Shown one piece after another: positions 1,849 through 16,224 of a stretch of DNA of 64,000 bases. The stretch is from NCBI GenBank assembly GCA_025057975.1, contig JANWUV010000003.1, positions 186,001 to 250,000 on the forward strand, given 5' to 3'. The notes beneath the pieces were generated by a model. That model searched no databases. It was given only the letters and a program-made list of their open reading frames with translations, and was not told the origin of the DNA. The translations under genes and the position numbers were made by a program. The DNA comes from Chloracidobacterium sp. GTDB lineage: Bacteria; Acidobacteriota; Blastocatellia; Chloracidobacteriales; Chloracidobacteriaceae. The stretch's first letter is position 1. Every line of letters starts with the position of its first letter.

Positions 1849-2619
1849 TCACGCCCGCGTCGCCCGCTCGTAAATCAACCGCAACCCTTCGAGGGTGAGG
1901 TTTTCATCAATTTCCGTGATGAGCTGCGACCCCTTGCCGATTAAGCGCGCCAAACCGCCGGTCGCAATCACCGCCCGCAACCCGCCCATCTCCGCCTGCA
2001 TGCGCTGAAGAATACCTTCCACCAAACCGATGTAGCCGAAGTAAAGCCCGGATTGAATGCTGCCGGTCGTCGAAGTTCCAATGACTTGCGCCGGGTGATT
2101 GATGCTTACTCTTGGCAACCGCGCCGCCCGCTGGAACAACGCTTCGGCGGAAATCGTGACGCCCGGCGCAATGACCCCGCCCAAATACGTTCCATCTTCC
2201 GAAATGGCGTCAAACGTCGTCGCCGTACCGAAATCCACCACCACGCAGGGGCCGCCGTAGCGCGCATAAGCCGCGACGGCGTTAACAATCCGATCCGCGC
2301 CGACATCCTGCGGCGCGTCGTACCGAATCGGCATGCCAACGTTCTCGGTCGGACGCACAAACAACGGCTCACGTCCAAAGTACGTCTGCGCCATGCGAAA
2401 GAAGGTGAAGTTAAGCGGCGGGACGACCGAGGCGATGGCGATGCCGGTGATGGCCTGTGGGTCAAGCTGTGAAAATGTGAACAGATTGCGGCACAAAATG
2501 CCGTACTCGTCCACCGTTCTTTCCTGTTCCGTCGTCAACCGCCAGTGCGCAATCAGGTTCTCGCCAGCGTACACACCCAGCGTCGTATTCGTATTGCCAA
2601 CGTCAATTACGAGCAGCAT
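1849..2619 (-). CDS. coaX: type III pantothenate kinase
   Basis: Phosphorylates pantothenate in the first step of coenzyme A synthesis. The 256-residue protein begins MLLVIDVGNTNT, with the phosphate-binding DVGNT motif at residues 6-10. It also has GADR at 107-110, the catalytic aspartate at 129 followed by GTATTFD at 131-137, and a C-terminal ATGGLA segment. These are the hallmarks of the CoaX (type III) form, which is insensitive to CoA feedback. The reading frame extends 61 codons further upstream, but the family always starts just before DVGNT, so the ATG at 2619 was chosen. No strong ribosome-binding site is visible there. The length is typical. Confidence 0.95.
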   Translation of the reverse strand: MLLVIDVGNTNTTLGVYAGENLIAHWRLTTEQERTVDEYGILCRNLFTFSQLDPQAITGIAIASVVPPLNFTFFRMAQTYFGREPLFVRPTENVGMPIRYDAPQDVGADRIVNAVAAYARYGGPCVVVDFGTATTFDAISEDGTYLGGVIAPGVTISAEALFQRAARLPRVSINHPAQVIGTSTTGSIQSGLYFGYIGLVEGILQRMQAEMGGLRAVIATGGLARLIGKGSQLITEIDENLTLEGLRLIYERATRA

Positions 2620-3115
2620 GCCGTCGTACTTTGGTGGGGAATCGTATTGCCAGCGCTCCTCTGCCGTTTGCCCCAGCATCGCGCAGGCTATCCGTCGCAT
2701 CGGCACGCGACGAGAGAGGTCGTCGCCAACCACCACCGCCGTTGTAGCGCGTCGTTTGAACCTGCATGGACAGGTGGGTAGCCTAGCGTCGCATTCTTGC
2801 ACGGCGCACGTAGCGCCCGGCGCAAACGCGAACTTGCCGCAGCTTCCCGTTCAAACGGCATCGGCCCAAACACTGGCGCCCGGCACGCACGGCGTAGAAC
2901 GGACGACGACCACGCACGACGATAGGCGAAGGCGGCGGTTCGGGCAAGCGCGTTCCACCCCCTCAAACGAACCACTTCCAGTGGGCGATTCGGTCGCAGG
3001 GGGAGAAAGTCCAATGACGGCTGCCGCATGGCGCGCCTGCGCCCACGAAAGATGGCATCCGACAAGGCGACTGCGATATGGTTGCCGACCTTGTTGCTCG
3101 GACGGGGGTTCGGCT
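2620..3115. other. intergenic region between divergent coaX and the lysC operon
   Basis: About 500 bases with no reading frame that resembles a known protein. The open frames present are arginine/alanine-rich out-of-frame readings. It separates coaX (leftward) from the secreted-protein/lysC pair (rightward) and so should hold both promoters. No convincing -35/-10 pair was found by eye. Confidence 0.5.
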
Positions 3116-3517
3116 ATGCGATGGAACATTGGGATTGGACTTGGGTTATGGCTTGCCGTGACGGCGTCGCTGCTCTTCGGGCAGTCGTCGCGCCCAGTGC
3201 GGCTGCGCTTCACGCCGGGGGCTTTCTCAACCACGGTCAGCGGCACGCTAACGGGCTATGCGTACCGTGACTATGTTGTGCGCGCCCGCGCCGGACAAGT
3301 CCTCTCTTTCGCACTGAGTCGCAGTACGCCGCAGCCCGTTGGCGTGGTGTTGCCGGCCGGCGGCGGCGATCCGTTGCCGGGCGGCGAAGACCGCACCGGA
3401 CACGTCACCCTACCGGCGGACGGCGACTACATCGTGCGGGTGCTGTTGATGCGCAATGACGCACGGCGTACGAAACGCGCTATACGATTTTCGCTCACAG
3501 TTGAGATTCTTCCATGA
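3116..3517 (+). CDS. small secreted protein, possible lysozyme-inhibitor-like beta domain
   Basis: A 133-residue protein with an N-terminal signal peptide (MRWNIGIGLGLWLAVTASLLFG). A compact all-beta domain follows: RLRFTPGAFSTTVSGTL, YRDYVVRARAGQ, then LPADGDYIVRVLLMRNDARR. This pattern of a 'GQ' turn, a 'DGDY-VRV-LMRN-ARR' block and a final strand is seen in periplasmic proteins annotated as g-type lysozyme inhibitors or as uncharacterised proteins. It also recalls pre-peptidase C-terminal domains. The periplasm or outer surface is the likely location. Its stop overlaps the lysC start by four bases (ATGA), so the two are translationally coupled; no functional link to lysine synthesis is evident. 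Confidence 0.75.
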   Translation: MRWNIGIGLGLWLAVTASLLFGQSSRPVRLRFTPGAFSTTVSGTLTGYAYRDYVVRARAGQVLSFALSRSTPQPVGVVLPAGGGDPLPGGEDRTGHVTLPADGDYIVRVLLMRNDARRTKRAIRFSLTVEILP

Positions 3518-4920
3518 GAGTCTTGAAGTTCGGCGGTACGTCGGTTGGCGACGCCGACCGCATTCGCCAGCTAGTTTCCATCGTCAACGCCGAACGCGAA
3601 CAGGATGCACGAATAGTCGTTGTAGTCTCGGCTATGGCTGGCGTGACGAATCGGCTGCTTGACGCCGCCCGGTCGGCTGCTTGCGGCAACGTCGCCGCTG
3701 TTGCCGACGCGCATGCGGAACTCCGTCGCCGCCACCTTGACGCTTTGACGCAACTGGTGGCAAACGACGCCGAACGTCGAACGCTAACGGTGGAGTTAGA
3801 CGCTTGGCTTGACCGCTTCGCCCGTATCGGCGAAGGCATCGCCTTGGTCGGCGAGTTGCCGCCACGTGCACAGGATTTTGTCGCCGGGTTAGGCGAACGG
3901 CTGTCGGCGCGGCTAGTTGCAGCCGCCTTGCGCGCGTCCGGCGTTGCGGCGACCGCCTATGACGCCGACCAATTGATTGTCACTGACGACACGTTCGGCG
4001 GAGCCGTACCGGAGATGGCGGCGACAGCAGCGGCGACACGCGCCCGGTTGCTTCCGGCGCTCGCCGCCGGTCACACGCCTGTTGTAACCGGATTCATCGG
4101 CGCGACGCCGGAGGGTATTCCGACCACGCTCGGACGCGGCGGCTCAGATTATTCCGCCGGTATCTTAGGGGCGGCGCTGGAAGCTGAAGCTGTCGTTATC
4201 TGGACGGACGCTGACGGCTTTATGACCGCCGACCCACGTCTCATCCCAACGGCCCAGGTCTTGGCGGAAATCAGCTACGCCGAAGCGAGCGAACTAGCCT
4301 ACTACGGCGCAAAAGTCTTACACCCAAAGACGCTGCTGCCGCTTATCCCCAAAGGCATCCCGCTATACGTCAAGAACAGTTTTCGTCCACAAGCGCCAGG
4401 AACGCGCGTTTCAGCGACGACCGGCGACTGGCGGGCCGATATCAAATCGGTGACGTCTATCAAGGGACTTGCGCTCATCACCGTCGCCGGACGGGGTATG
4501 CTGGGCGTACCGGGCATCGCCGCTAAAACATTCGCCGCCGTCGCCGCCGCTGGCGTCAATGTCTTACTGATTTCGCAATCGTCGTCGGAAAACAACCTAT
4601 GCCTGATGGTTGAAGCAACCGACGCGGAAAAAACACGGACAGCTTTGGTCAAGGCGCTGGCGATGGAGTTTCACCATGGTTGCGTCGAGCGCGTGGACGT
4701 GCTGCAACCAGTCGCCATCGTCGCCGTGGTCGGAGCCGGTATGCGTGGACGGCCGGGCATTGCGGCGCGAATCTTTTCAGCCGTTGCCGCCGCCAACGTC
4801 AATGTCATCGCCATCGCCCAAGGTTCTTCAGAAATCAACATTTCGTTTGTCGTGACGGAGGAGGCGGCCGTCGCTGCCGTCGCCGCCATTCACGAGCAAT
4901 TTGCGTTAGGCGTTGCCTGA
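3514..4920 (+). CDS. lysC: aspartate kinase
   Basis: Phosphorylates aspartate, the entry step to lysine, threonine, methionine and diaminopimelate. The 468-residue protein starts MRVLKFGGTSVGDADR, with the nucleotide/aspartate-binding KFGGTS at residues 5-10. It has GRGGSDYSAG near residue 206 and an FMTADPR segment. The C-terminal part carries two ACT-type regulatory repeats: VAGRGMLGVPGIAAKTF, then VGAGMRGRPGIAARIF with IAQGSSEINIS. These bind the feedback amino acid. This is the monofunctional class with no homoserine dehydrogenase domain. Its start overlaps the preceding stop, and its 3' end overlaps the convergent Uma2-like gene by 15 bases. Confidence 0.95.
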   Translation: MRVLKFGGTSVGDADRIRQLVSIVNAEREQDARIVVVVSAMAGVTNRLLDAARSAACGNVAAVADAHAELRRRHLDALTQLVANDAERRTLTVELDAWLDRFARIGEGIALVGELPPRAQDFVAGLGERLSARLVAAALRASGVAATAYDADQLIVTDDTFGGAVPEMAATAAATRARLLPALAAGHTPVVTGFIGATPEGIPTTLGRGGSDYSAGILGAALEAEAVVIWTDADGFMTADPRLIPTAQVLAEISYAEASELAYYGAKVLHPKTLLPLIPKGIPLYVKNSFRPQAPGTRVSATTGDWRADIKSVTSIKGLALITVAGRGMLGVPGIAAKTFAAVAAAGVNVLLISQSSSENNLCLMVEATDAEKTRTALVKALAMEFHHGCVERVDVLQPVAIVAVVGAGMRGRPGIAARIFSAVAAANVNVIAIAQGSSEINISFVVTEEAAVAAVAAIHEQFALGVA

Positions 4921-13969: not shown

Positions 13970-14278
13970 CTACGTCTTCGGCGGTCGGTGAAGGTCTCCG
14001 AAACGGCGCAGCCACGCCAGCCAATCGCGCCGCCGGCGCCGCCAGCGCGTCAACCGACTCTGTCGACGCTGATACTCAGCCTTGTAGTCAAGTTTCCTAG
14101 CGAAGATGCGCGCCGCCAGTTCCAATCCCGTCAGGTCAAGCGTTGCCAACGCCGCGCGTTCTTCCGGAGTGAGGCCGAACGTCGCAGCGACGGCTTCCGG
14201 CGCGGCCAAGAATCGCTCCCGAAAAGCTTCATCGGCGTAAAGCCGCGCCAGAAAGGCTTCAAACTGTGGGGACGACAT
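13970..14278 (-). CDS. small helical partner protein of the MNIO enzyme
   Basis: A 102-residue protein whose ATG at 14278 lies inside the last codons of the MNIO gene, a 20-base overlap, so the two are translationally coupled. The N-terminal half is helical and acidic/aromatic (FEAFLARLYADEAFRERFL, then FGLTPEERAALATLDLTG). That pattern recalls the short helical domains of Nif11/LigA-like and NHLP-type leader families. The C-terminal half is strongly basic (RRQSRLTRWRRRRRDW). MNIO enzymes usually need a small partner protein that binds the substrate leader, and this gene is positioned for that job. No cysteine is present, so it is unlikely to be the modified substrate. Role inferred from position only. 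Confidence 0.7.
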   Translation of the reverse strand: MSSPQFEAFLARLYADEAFRERFLAAPEAVAATFGLTPEERAALATLDLTGLELAARIFARKLDYKAEYQRRQSRLTRWRRRRRDWLAWLRRFGDLHRPPKT

Positions 14279-15161
14279 CGGTTTCCACCCAACGCGCTGC
14301 ACGTCCCCGCGCCAGCGCCGCCCGCGCGGCGTCAAGCTCGGCGAGCAACTCATCAAAAACCGGGTAGTCGCCGTCGCGTTCCAAAATGACGACCAACGGC
14401 TGCGGCGCACGACGGGCGACTTCCTCCAACAAATCAAACACCGGCGGCGGTGTGGCGTGGCGGTGGTCGTCAAGCAGGCGGCGGCCCGGGAAGCGCGTCG
14501 CCTGCACCCATTTGCCGCCGGCGAGGTGGATGCAGCCGACGCGCTCAATCGGCAGTTCAGCGATCACCTCACGCGGGTCAAAATCGAAGTTGCAACCGTT
14601 GGCGTAGAGATTGTGCAGGTCAAGCAGCAGATCATTTTCCGTCGCCGCCAGAACGCCTCGCAGCCAAGCGGCTTCGTCCATCCGACTGCCGGGCGGCTCG
14701 ATGATGGTTGAAATGTTCTCCACGAGCGGCGCACAGCCGACAATCGTCCGCGCCTTCGCCAGATTGCGTGCTGCGCCCTCAATTGTCGCCTCCGTACGGG
14801 GCGGCGCCGCCAGATGACCAATTTCCACGCCGCCGCCGCGTACAAAGGCCAGGTGTTCTGACCAAAACCACGGCTCCACGTCTTCGATGAGGCGCGCCAT
14901 GTGGTCAAGGCGAACGACATCCACCGGTGCAGTCGAGGCCATCCCCAACGACACGCCGTGCAGGGCAAGCGGAACCTGCCGCCCAAGCCAGCGGAGCGCC
15001 CGCCGGTCACGCGCCGGCGCGTCGAAATAGTCATCGGCGATGACTTCGACAACCTCAATGCGGTCAAGGTGGGCCAAGATGTCGGCGGCCAGCGGCGCAC
15101 GCCATCCCAGACCCACGCGGTCGGTCCTTAGTCGCTTCATTGCCGGTATCGGTGGATTCAT
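14259..15161 (-). CDS. MNIO-family (DUF692) multinuclear iron oxidative enzyme
   Basis: A 300-residue TIM-barrel enzyme of the DUF692 family, whose characterised members (MbnB, TglH, ChrH) oxidatively rearrange cysteines in peptides. All the family blocks are present. Numbering from ATG 15161, they are VGLGWR (16-21), EVIADDYF (39-46), H68 in LHGVS, SEHLAF (101-106), VENIST (147-152) and LDLHNLYANGCNFDFD (180-195). The last two are CIHLAGG with H212 and ILERDGDYP (259-267). The conserved His, Glu, Asp and Asn residues needed for iron binding all appear intact. A start at 15140 (MKRLRTDR) is equally possible. The gene begins 19 bases after the Cys-tailed membrane protein and overlaps the small partner gene. 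Confidence 0.93.
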   Translation of the reverse strand: MNPPIPAMKRLRTDRVGLGWRAPLAADILAHLDRIEVVEVIADDYFDAPARDRRALRWLGRQVPLALHGVSLGMASTAPVDVVRLDHMARLIEDVEPWFWSEHLAFVRGGGVEIGHLAAPPRTEATIEGAARNLAKARTIVGCAPLVENISTIIEPPGSRMDEAAWLRGVLAATENDLLLDLHNLYANGCNFDFDPREVIAELPIERVGCIHLAGGKWVQATRFPGRRLLDDHRHATPPPVFDLLEEVARRAPQPLVVILERDGDYPVFDELLAELDAARAALARGRAARWVETDVVPTV

Positions 15162-15180
15162 CGCCACAGCGAGGGCGTCA

Positions 15181-16224
15181 TTAGCTGCAACCGCCGCCGC
15201 AGCCGCCGCCGTCACCGCCGCCGTCGCCACCGCTGCTGCAACTGCTGCCACAGGCGCTGCCGCACGAAGAACCGATGGACACCCCGGCGCGGAAGGTTTC
15301 CCGCACTTCCGGGAAAACGTCCGACGGCAGCGCCGCGACGCCGTAAACGCCGGCCACCAACGCAATCTGACTGGTCGCGCCTCTGGCTTTGAGGTCGGCG
15401 GCGTTGGCGCGCAAGCCGTCAAAGAGCGACGCCAGCGATTCTACGACGCGGTCGCCCAAGCGGGTGCGGTACTCTCCGCCGAACGTCACCGCCCAGCCGG
15501 CGGCCGCCAGCATAATGATGAGCGTAAAGCCGATGTTGTAGTGTCCGCCCAAGACGGCGACGGTGATTCTGGTAACGCCGACGACAAGAATGAACAGCAG
15601 GGCAAGGGTGGCGCGCACTCTGCGTCGCTTTTGCTGCGCGGTCGAAGGGAAGAAACCAAGCGCCGTCAGCTCGTTTTTGTAAATGTCGTCCACCCGCATC
15701 TTGAGACCGCCGGTTTTGAACATCTCCTCCGCCTTGTGCGGTACCATGAAGAAGTCCAAGACCGCTCGTTCAATCGGGAACTTGGCGGTACTCGGATCAC
15801 CTTCGGGCAGCGCCGTCGCTAGCTTCGGCTCCGCCCTACCTGAATTTTCATCTCGAATCAGCAACAGTCGCCCCTGCTCCATCAGCACCGCCGCCGCAAC
15901 GCGCAGGGCTTCGTTGGCGCGCCCCCGGAGGTACGCCAGACGGTAGGGGTCTGAAGTGTCAAGCTTCGGCAGTTCGCCAACCGGCTCGGAAATGACCCGC
16001 AACAGGTAAAGCGTCCCAATGACGCCCGCGCAAGACAGGAGATACGCCCAGAGGAAGTCGTACTTAGGCAGGGCAATCACGACGTACGTGAAACAGACCA
16101 GCAGCGTCGTCCATACGACGCCAAACAGCAGCGGAACCCAAGCGTGGCTCTCAGGGTGCGGTGACGGGGTTGAAAACTTCGGTGTGTACTGTCCTGTTGG
16201 TGCGCTGACCGGATACGAACTCAT
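15181..16224 (-). CDS. TIGR04222-type membrane protein with Cys/Gly-rich C-terminal tail
   Basis: A 347-residue protein with transmembrane helices near residues 31-52 and 57-77. It then has the TIGR04222 signature (SDPYRLAYLRGRANEALR, about residues 91-108) and a second hydrophobic pair near 207-245. The last 30 residues form a low-complexity tail: SSCGSACGSSC, then aspartate/glycine repeats, then CGGGCS. It holds five cysteines. The ATG at 16224 is fixed by GGGAGG seven bases upstream. It is the first gene of a three-gene leftward operon with the MNIO enzyme and its small partner. I infer that the tail is what the MNIO enzyme modifies. A plain structural or metal-binding tail is the alternative. 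Confidence 0.85.
   Translation of the reverse strand: MSSYPVSAPTGQYTPKFSTPSPHPESHAWVPLLFGVVWTTLLVCFTYVVIALPKYDFLWAYLLSCAGVIGTLYLLRVISEPVGELPKLDTSDPYRLAYLRGRANEALRVAAAVLMEQGRLLLIRDENSGRAEPKLATALPEGDPSTAKFPIERAVLDFFMVPHKAEEMFKTGGLKMRVDDIYKNELTALGFFPSTAQQKRRRVRATLALLFILVVGVTRITVAVLGGHYNIGFTLIIMLAAAGWAVTFGGEYRTRLGDRVVESLASLFDGLRANAADLKARGATSQIALVAGVYGVAALPSDVFPEVRETFRAGVSIGSSCGSACGSSCSSGGDGGGDGGGCGGGCS

Follow-up and report, generated by a model that had tools for sequence, protein, structure and literature searches.

Membrane proteins of the TIGR04222 family have already been proposed to offer their C-terminal tails as substrates to multinuclear iron oxidases (MNIO, DUF692) that have PME-type 2 proteins as partners (Antoine et al. 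2025, PMC12452194). As far as the main text of that paper goes, most of the family lies in Actinomycetota, more than a quarter of TIGR04222 proteins are without C-proximal cysteines, one third of the genomes with TIGR04222 are without an MNIO, and the nature of the tail modification is left open; the same main text makes no mention of acidobacteri, Os1348, Nif11, LigA, nucleotidyltransferase or Sbt. In the open-licence literature, TIGR04222 came up in this paper and in PMC5183585, and together with radical S-adenosylmethionine (SAM) enzymes in the former alone, the occurrences shown being reference titles; subscription papers may say more. Elsewhere, MNIO products including the bufferins are reported to carry 5-thiooxazoles, and the peptide modified by the radical SAM enzyme SbtM has been grouped with them by its absorbance at about 305 nm (PMC12668002) and named as a reported thiooxazole (PMC12538549). 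Here, we analyzed a three-gene locus, consisting of a TIGR04222 membrane protein, an MNIO and a small partner, in a 64,000-nucleotide stretch of Chloracidobacterium sp. DNA (contig JANWUV010000003.1, positions 186,001 to 250,000; hereafter the window).

The locus reads on the minus strand in the order TIGR04222, MNIO, partner, and has the following features:

15181..16224, minus: TIGR04222 membrane protein, 347 residues, proposed substrate (NCBIfam TIGR04222 profile; AlphaFold2 model)
span 15478..16140, minus: four predicted membrane helices, residues 29-51, 54-79, 195-226 and 232-249 (hydropathy, AlphaFold2 helices, charge counts)
15184..15282, minus: C-terminal Gly/Ser/Asp/Cys tail, residues 315-347, disordered, with 5 Cys as proposed modification sites (sequence; predicted local distance difference test, pLDDT, < 50; Cys in the tails of relatives)
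14259..15140, minus: MNIO (DUF692, PF05114) oxidase, 293 residues, ATG at 15140 (PF05114, 3.3e-67)
13970..14278, minus: partner, 102 residues, Os1348/Nif11/LigA-like domain and basic C-terminal extension (NF038399 match)

The tail has the sequence SIGSSCGSACGSSCSSGGDGGGDGGGCGGGCS, and the partner and MNIO genes overlap by 20 bases; on rechecking, the coordinates, gene order, lengths, overlap and five-cysteine tail given by the initial annotation were all correct. The membrane protein belongs to TIGR04222 (78.2 bits vs. a cut-off of 43) and the oxidase to the MNIO superfamily (PF05114, 227 bits vs. 25, profile positions 2–262 of 263). A genome search found a single TIGR04222 gene and a single PF05114 gene, adjacent to each other, and since the same order recurs in all 30 MNIO-linked loci tabulated below, this is no chance arrangement. 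The locus is thus real and conserved, and it is in part already published. In a comparison with 15 loci, the MNIO of the window is 91% identical to that of an uncultured Blastocatellia metagenome-assembled genome (MAG) and 89% identical to that of Chloracidobacterium sp. CP2_5A, the nearest genus-named genome among them. A scan of the region gave no sigma-70 promoter-like site, and the number of terminator-like sites was not above that in shuffled sequences.

The explanation that we favor, with a probability of roughly 0.55, is that the MNIO and its partner convert cysteines of the tail into metal-binding 5-thiooxazoles while the protein remains anchored in the membrane. The operon would thus encode one membrane protein and a two-part enzyme acting on its tail. 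The TIGR04222 protein would enter the inner membrane with its flexible Gly/Ser/Cys tail most probably facing the cytoplasm, and the MNIO, together with the small helical partner protein, would bind this tail. Tail cysteines, mostly those before glycine, would be oxidised by four electrons, each closing with the preceding backbone carbonyl to a 5-thiooxazole, and the end product would be a membrane-anchored tail that binds metal of the copper type and is neither cleaved nor secreted. The gene order, its conservation, one MNIO-partner fusion, the Ser-Cys signature and SbtM in place of the MNIO in two relatives are observations; the modified state of the tail, its chemistry, its location relative to the membrane and the metal binding are predictions. 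A wider generalization is more tentative and, in our estimate, somewhat improbable, namely that bacteria have genuine inner-membrane proteins whose cytosol-facing Gly/Ser/Cys tails are converted on the spot into brushes of metal-binding 5-thiooxazoles, without a leader, cleavage or secretion, and that two unrelated oxidative enzymes, one a multinuclear iron oxidase and the other of the radical SAM type, have taken each other's place in the same reaction on the same substrate. If true, thiooxazole chemistries would extend from small peptides to membrane proteins.

The survey for TIGR04222 genes covered 396 genomes from the phylum of the window, 288 from that of L038 (a Verrucomicrobiota MAG), 398 from that of L029 (labelled as an Alphaproteobacteria MAG) and 240 from that of L035 (a Bdellovibrionales MAG). 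At least 19, 9, 14 and 3 genomes, respectively, had a match over the cut-off, weaker matches not being counted. After leaving out the window, the three centres (picked via their MNIO), L020 (partial) as well as L048 and L068 (contig ends), 38 proteins remained, of which 15 were MNIO-linked, 4 radical SAM-linked and 19 linked to neither enzyme; L025 is the same protein as L018. For the 19 enzyme-less proteins, no PF05114 was found in 10 genomes while 9 have it elsewhere; L070 and L072 have a short downstream flank, and no PF05114 was found in their genomes. Of the 395 genomes drawn from the phylum of the window in addition to its own, 14 carry the MNIO-linked form.

Of the new findings, the replacement of the MNIO by SbtM in two relatives is the strongest. 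The TIGR04222 gene of L079, with six tail cysteines, is immediately followed by a radical SAM/SPASM protein, and in L089, a wider stretch that surrounds L005 (with seven tail cysteines), such a protein lies further downstream. Both score above the SbtM cut-off (TIGR04082, 509.8 and 493.9 bits vs. 350), covering profile positions 195–516 only (an SbtM of another genome, L094, covers 1–516), and a PF05114 gene was found neither in the L079 nor in the L089 genome. L079 and L005 are placed on the tree within a group whose other rows are MNIO-linked. TIGR04222 was found in two of 55 genomes of the order of G1240, one having L079 with SbtM and the other L080 with MNIO and partner; in the order of L079, no TIGR04222 genome besides that of L080 came up. 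SbtM itself is rare: 2 of the 396 genomes of the window's phylum exceed the cut-off, one of them being the swap locus, whereas matches of any strength (352/396 genomes, 11/14 controls) represent the ordinary radical SAM background. Since SbtM stands in for the MNIO and both are reported thiooxazole makers, a thiooxazole would be the expected product on TIGR04222 tails, and a single measurement of mass could answer what the modification is (4 Da lost per Cys, with absorbance near 305 nm).

Used as a phmmer query, the radical SAM protein of L079 matched L089, L066, L065 and, weakly, L020 (4e-4), while a CxxxCxxC scan of 36 loci retrieved L065, L066 and L089 plus a chance match in the tail of L012; neither search identified a replacement enzyme in the Verrucomicrobiota group. 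Neither L094 nor L124 yielded a precursor for the L094 SbtM, even when TGA was read as a residue. Two side observations concern radical SAM proteins: in L020 (1–2331) a frame ends in (HSAC)n repeats, which may be a precursor of the His-Xaa-Cys type, and at L109 (2496–3350), in the window's phylum, an MNIO adjoins a radical SAM protein.

The second new point is that a Ser-Cys signature, and not cysteine alone, tracks the MNIO. Ser-Cys was present in the tails of 15/15 MNIO-linked and 1/19 enzyme-less survey proteins (Fisher 8.6e-9), the signature having been found in the same data on which it was tested and in related rows, so that the p-values are exploratory. It is also present in 14 of 15 named loci that were found through their MNIO (4–8 tail cysteines), and the window tail has two. 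Of the 101 cysteines in MNIO-linked tails, 50 follow a serine, where shuffled tails give 31% on average; in enzyme-less tails this holds for 1 cysteine of 69, against a shuffled mean of 15%. Because the signal lies above the shuffled level in the former and below it in the latter, it is more than a matter of serine content. A CGSSC-type motif, tried first as a discriminator, was weaker (9/15 vs. 5/19) and was dropped. The signature offers a simple way to choose likely modified tails. Cysteine counts (last 50 residues) ranged from 5 to 9 in MNIO-linked and from 0 to 7 in enzyme-less tails; five or more occurred in 15/15 vs. 7/19 (Fisher 1.4e-4). The co-occurrence of tail cysteines and MNIO that the initial annotation suggested checking was therefore seen from the side of the enzyme, but not from that of the tail. 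When the MNIO label is mapped on a tree built from 52 core domains, 5 changes are required, against a mean of 17 after shuffling. L003, with MNIO and Ser-Cys, is placed among enzyme-less rows, and L069, which has no adjacent MNIO and no tail, stands beside the MNIO-linked L018. This suggests, with moderate tree support, a few independent joint changes of tail and MNIO.

Together with the 15 named loci, the 15 MNIO-linked survey loci make up the 30 tabulated ones, all of which have TIGR04222 and then MNIO on one strand (30/30). A partner homologue accompanies the MNIO in 28 of them, L040 included; none was detected in L003. The three-gene order described by the initial annotation is accordingly conserved, and the MNIO-linked tails keep their cysteines as its reading of the tail as a substrate implies, although that idea is not new (PMC12452194).

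In the window, the partner scores barely over the cut-off of the Os1348 domain (NF038399, 42.1 bits vs. 40) and contains no cysteine; it also passes LigA (27.3 vs. 25.3 bits) and Nif11 (25.2 vs. 23.8 bits). At E-values up to 1 there was no match to DUF2063, the matches being LigA, Nif11 and Frankia_peptide. In L040, MNIO and partner are encoded as one chain, whose model (pLDDT 93.7, predicted template modelling score (pTM) 0.87) has a helix (255–298) spanning from the barrel to the partner and finds TglH, a Haemophilus DUF692 protein and MbnB as its best PDB matches. The alignment used for this model (A2) misplaces the first helix of partner-only rows, and another (A3) was set aside as its partner rows were misplaced. 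A further fusion, in part degenerate, seems by eye to be present in L006 (outside the 28). Because of its presence in 28/30 loci and the fusion in L040, the partner is most likely a subunit of the MNIO enzyme. It may be a PME-type 2 partner, a class defined by structural kinship with the DUF2063 protein NGO1945 (3dee) or with TglI in the absence of the Pfam signature; its position, the helical fold of the fusion model and the longer forms of L004, L011, L014 and L018 would fit.

Searches against plasmids gave no match for the operon DNA or the membrane protein of the window, and 352 records for its MNIO. From these, three actinobacterial loci were read (outside the 30 tabulated loci), so that Actinomycetota are hardly sampled. 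L091 (Nonomuraea, 1968–3980) has two tandem TIGR04222 genes, both Cys-tailed, ahead of one MNIO, and L093 (Tsukamurella) has TIGR04222, MNIO and a 61-residue protein.

Several observations weigh against the conversion of tail cysteines by MNIO and partner. On the Streptomyces sp. BHT-5-2 plasmid (L092, 3965–6260) the MNIO comes first and is followed by a tailless TIGR04222 protein without tail cysteines, recognized by a profile built for this analysis (5.9e-9); the initial annotation had held that an MNIO kept beside a cysteine-less membrane protein would contradict its proposal, and one of the three actinobacterial loci is of this kind. Cys-rich tails occur with neither MNIO nor radical SAM in the examined stretches (e.g., L041–L043, L045, L049), and five of the seven enzyme-less tails with at least five cysteines (L042, L043, L045, L049, L072) belong to genomes in which no PF05114 was found, so some tail cysteines are unmodified or otherwise employed. 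The MNIO-linked L029 is without Ser-Cys, and L061 has Ser-Cys without an enzyme. FonB, a 5-thiooxazole-making MNIO, prefers a small residue after the cysteine (PMC12668002), and Cys-Gly is frequent in MNIO-linked tails (78/101, shuffled mean 47%), which speaks for the conversion; it is so in enzyme-less tails too (56/69, shuffled 59%) and, being enriched in both groups, is no enzyme marker, and FonB also modified one Cys-Tyr variant (PMC12668002). In L089 our reading of the frames places another gene between TIGR04222 and SbtM. L065 and L066, though next to TIGR04222, remain below the SbtM cut-off (114.5 and 142.3 bits), have 2 and 3 tail cysteines and no Ser-Cys, and may be a different case. 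The SbtM product is taken from citing papers (PMC12668002, PMC12538549) and not from the original study, and there is only one clear MNIO-partner fusion, that of L040, which comes from a metagenome assembly.

Some of these points would be accommodated if the Cys tail were an independent, ancestral tail that interacts with metals, thiols or the membrane, and the MNIO and partner modified the membrane protein elsewhere or acted on another small peptide. We consider this unlikely. Besides L092 and the Cys-rich tails of genomes where no MNIO was detected, such an explanation could draw on the terminal GC..GGC cysteine pair. Irrespective of an enzyme, this pair is invariant throughout the 40 proteins selected for alignment A1 (tailless ones such as L069 and L071 were left out). 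Against the explanation stand the near restriction of Ser-Cys to enzyme-linked tails and L069, a tree neighbour of MNIO-linked rows that is without both the adjacent MNIO and the tail (an MNIO being elsewhere in its genome). Moreover, the recurring neighbour clusters that were recognized are confined to those named below, their cysteine content not having been systematically tested. It is about equally doubtful that the MNIO modifies the tail by a different reaction (a methanobactin-like oxazolone-thioamide, a thia-amino acid or another reaction of cysteine) and that SbtM in the swap loci does something else. The MNIO family is reported to catalyze several Cys and non-Cys reactions (PMC12452194), the window MNIO stays below the BufB equivalog cut-off (NF050167, 189.6 bits vs. 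310), and its partner is without the DUF2063 match; against this, BufB is the closest NCBIfam model, with ChrH (54.3 bits) and MbnB (18.8 bits) scoring much lower, and the two SbtM loci point to a shared chemistry.

Where the modified tail ends up is a separate matter, since Antoine et al. predicted periplasmic tails (PMC12452194), which would mean a bufferin-like modification in the cytoplasm followed by a periplasmic location. We regard this outcome as possible, if rather less probable than its opposite. The middle soluble domain lies between predicted membrane helices 2 and 3, and the first membrane helix has more Lys/Arg at its C-flank than at its N-flank in 24/30 proteins, with 6/30 ties and 0/30 reversed (counted in those 30 of the 40 A1 proteins without an N-terminal extension), which places the middle domain in the cytoplasm. 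Two membrane helices separate this domain from the tail. The weakly hydrophobic segment ahead of the tail reaches a 19-residue hydropathy of 1.6 in 9/40 proteins, but falls short of it in 31/40, and is an 11-residue helix (284–294) in the window's AlphaFold2 model (pLDDT 83.6, pTM 0.77; pLDDT < 50 for residues 315–347). With the middle domain inside, a two-helix hairpin next and a pre-tail segment that falls short in most proteins, the tail is most likely on the cytoplasmic side, opposite to the published view, as far as the charge bias and one model can tell.

A Foldseek search of this model against the PDB gave no significant match (best E 0.82), and in a profile search of PDB sequences the top matches were Gly-Ser linkers of fusion proteins and others that looked unrelated, so it was discarded. 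Four GOLPH3/Vps74 entries align to residues 86–318 of the model over 161–173 residues with Z 7.3–8.2, among the longest alignments in the list, yet within the common range for helical models; GPP34 was matched by 1/40 relatives (E 0.041). With E-values allowed up to 5, 35/40 TIGR04222 proteins matched the C-terminal domain of DUF2207 (PF20990), the best of them at 2.2e-11, but the window protein stays below the Pfam cut-off (16.9 bits vs. 33); the two families are likely distant relatives. Some enzyme-less TIGR04222 proteins (L015, L061–L063) carry long N-terminal extensions (open frames of 490–576 residues); that of L015 contains the stretch WHLHLLYTRDYW, which we take to be plant GRDP-like, and for L063 Pfam gave no family.

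Among the recurring neighbour clusters listed, those recognized are TIGR04222, MNIO, a nucleotidyltransferase-like (NT) protein, a Lon protease (in Chloracidobacterium-type loci) and out-of-frame reads. The NT protein (NTP_transf_2, 19.6 bits vs. a cut-off of 21) is encoded upstream of TIGR04222 in many MNIO or SbtM loci (L028–L032, L034, L035, L037–L039, L079, L080, L089 and others), both SbtM loci included, and was not detected in the available flanks of the Chloracidobacterium-type loci L007, L013, L016 and L027.

With respect to known systems, the locus shares with the bufferins and captophorins (BufABC, HvfABC, FonABC) an MNIO that is nearest to BufB, Cys-Gly sites and, by analogy, an expected copper-type binding. 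It differs from that class, whose precursors have Sec signal peptides and DUF2063 partners, in having a 347-residue protein with four predicted membrane helices and a 102-residue non-DUF2063 partner (no signal-peptide program was used). SbtM, a thio(seleno)oxazole radical SAM maturase, takes the place of the MNIO downstream of TIGR04222 in L079 and L089 in spite of being an unrelated type of enzyme. The clusters of Antoine et al. have the same membrane family, an adjacent MNIO, a Cys/Ser/Gly C-terminal tail and a partner without the DUF2063 signature; what the present analysis adds to them is the Ser-Cys signature, the SbtM replacement, the MNIO-partner fusion and the argument for a cytoplasmic topology.

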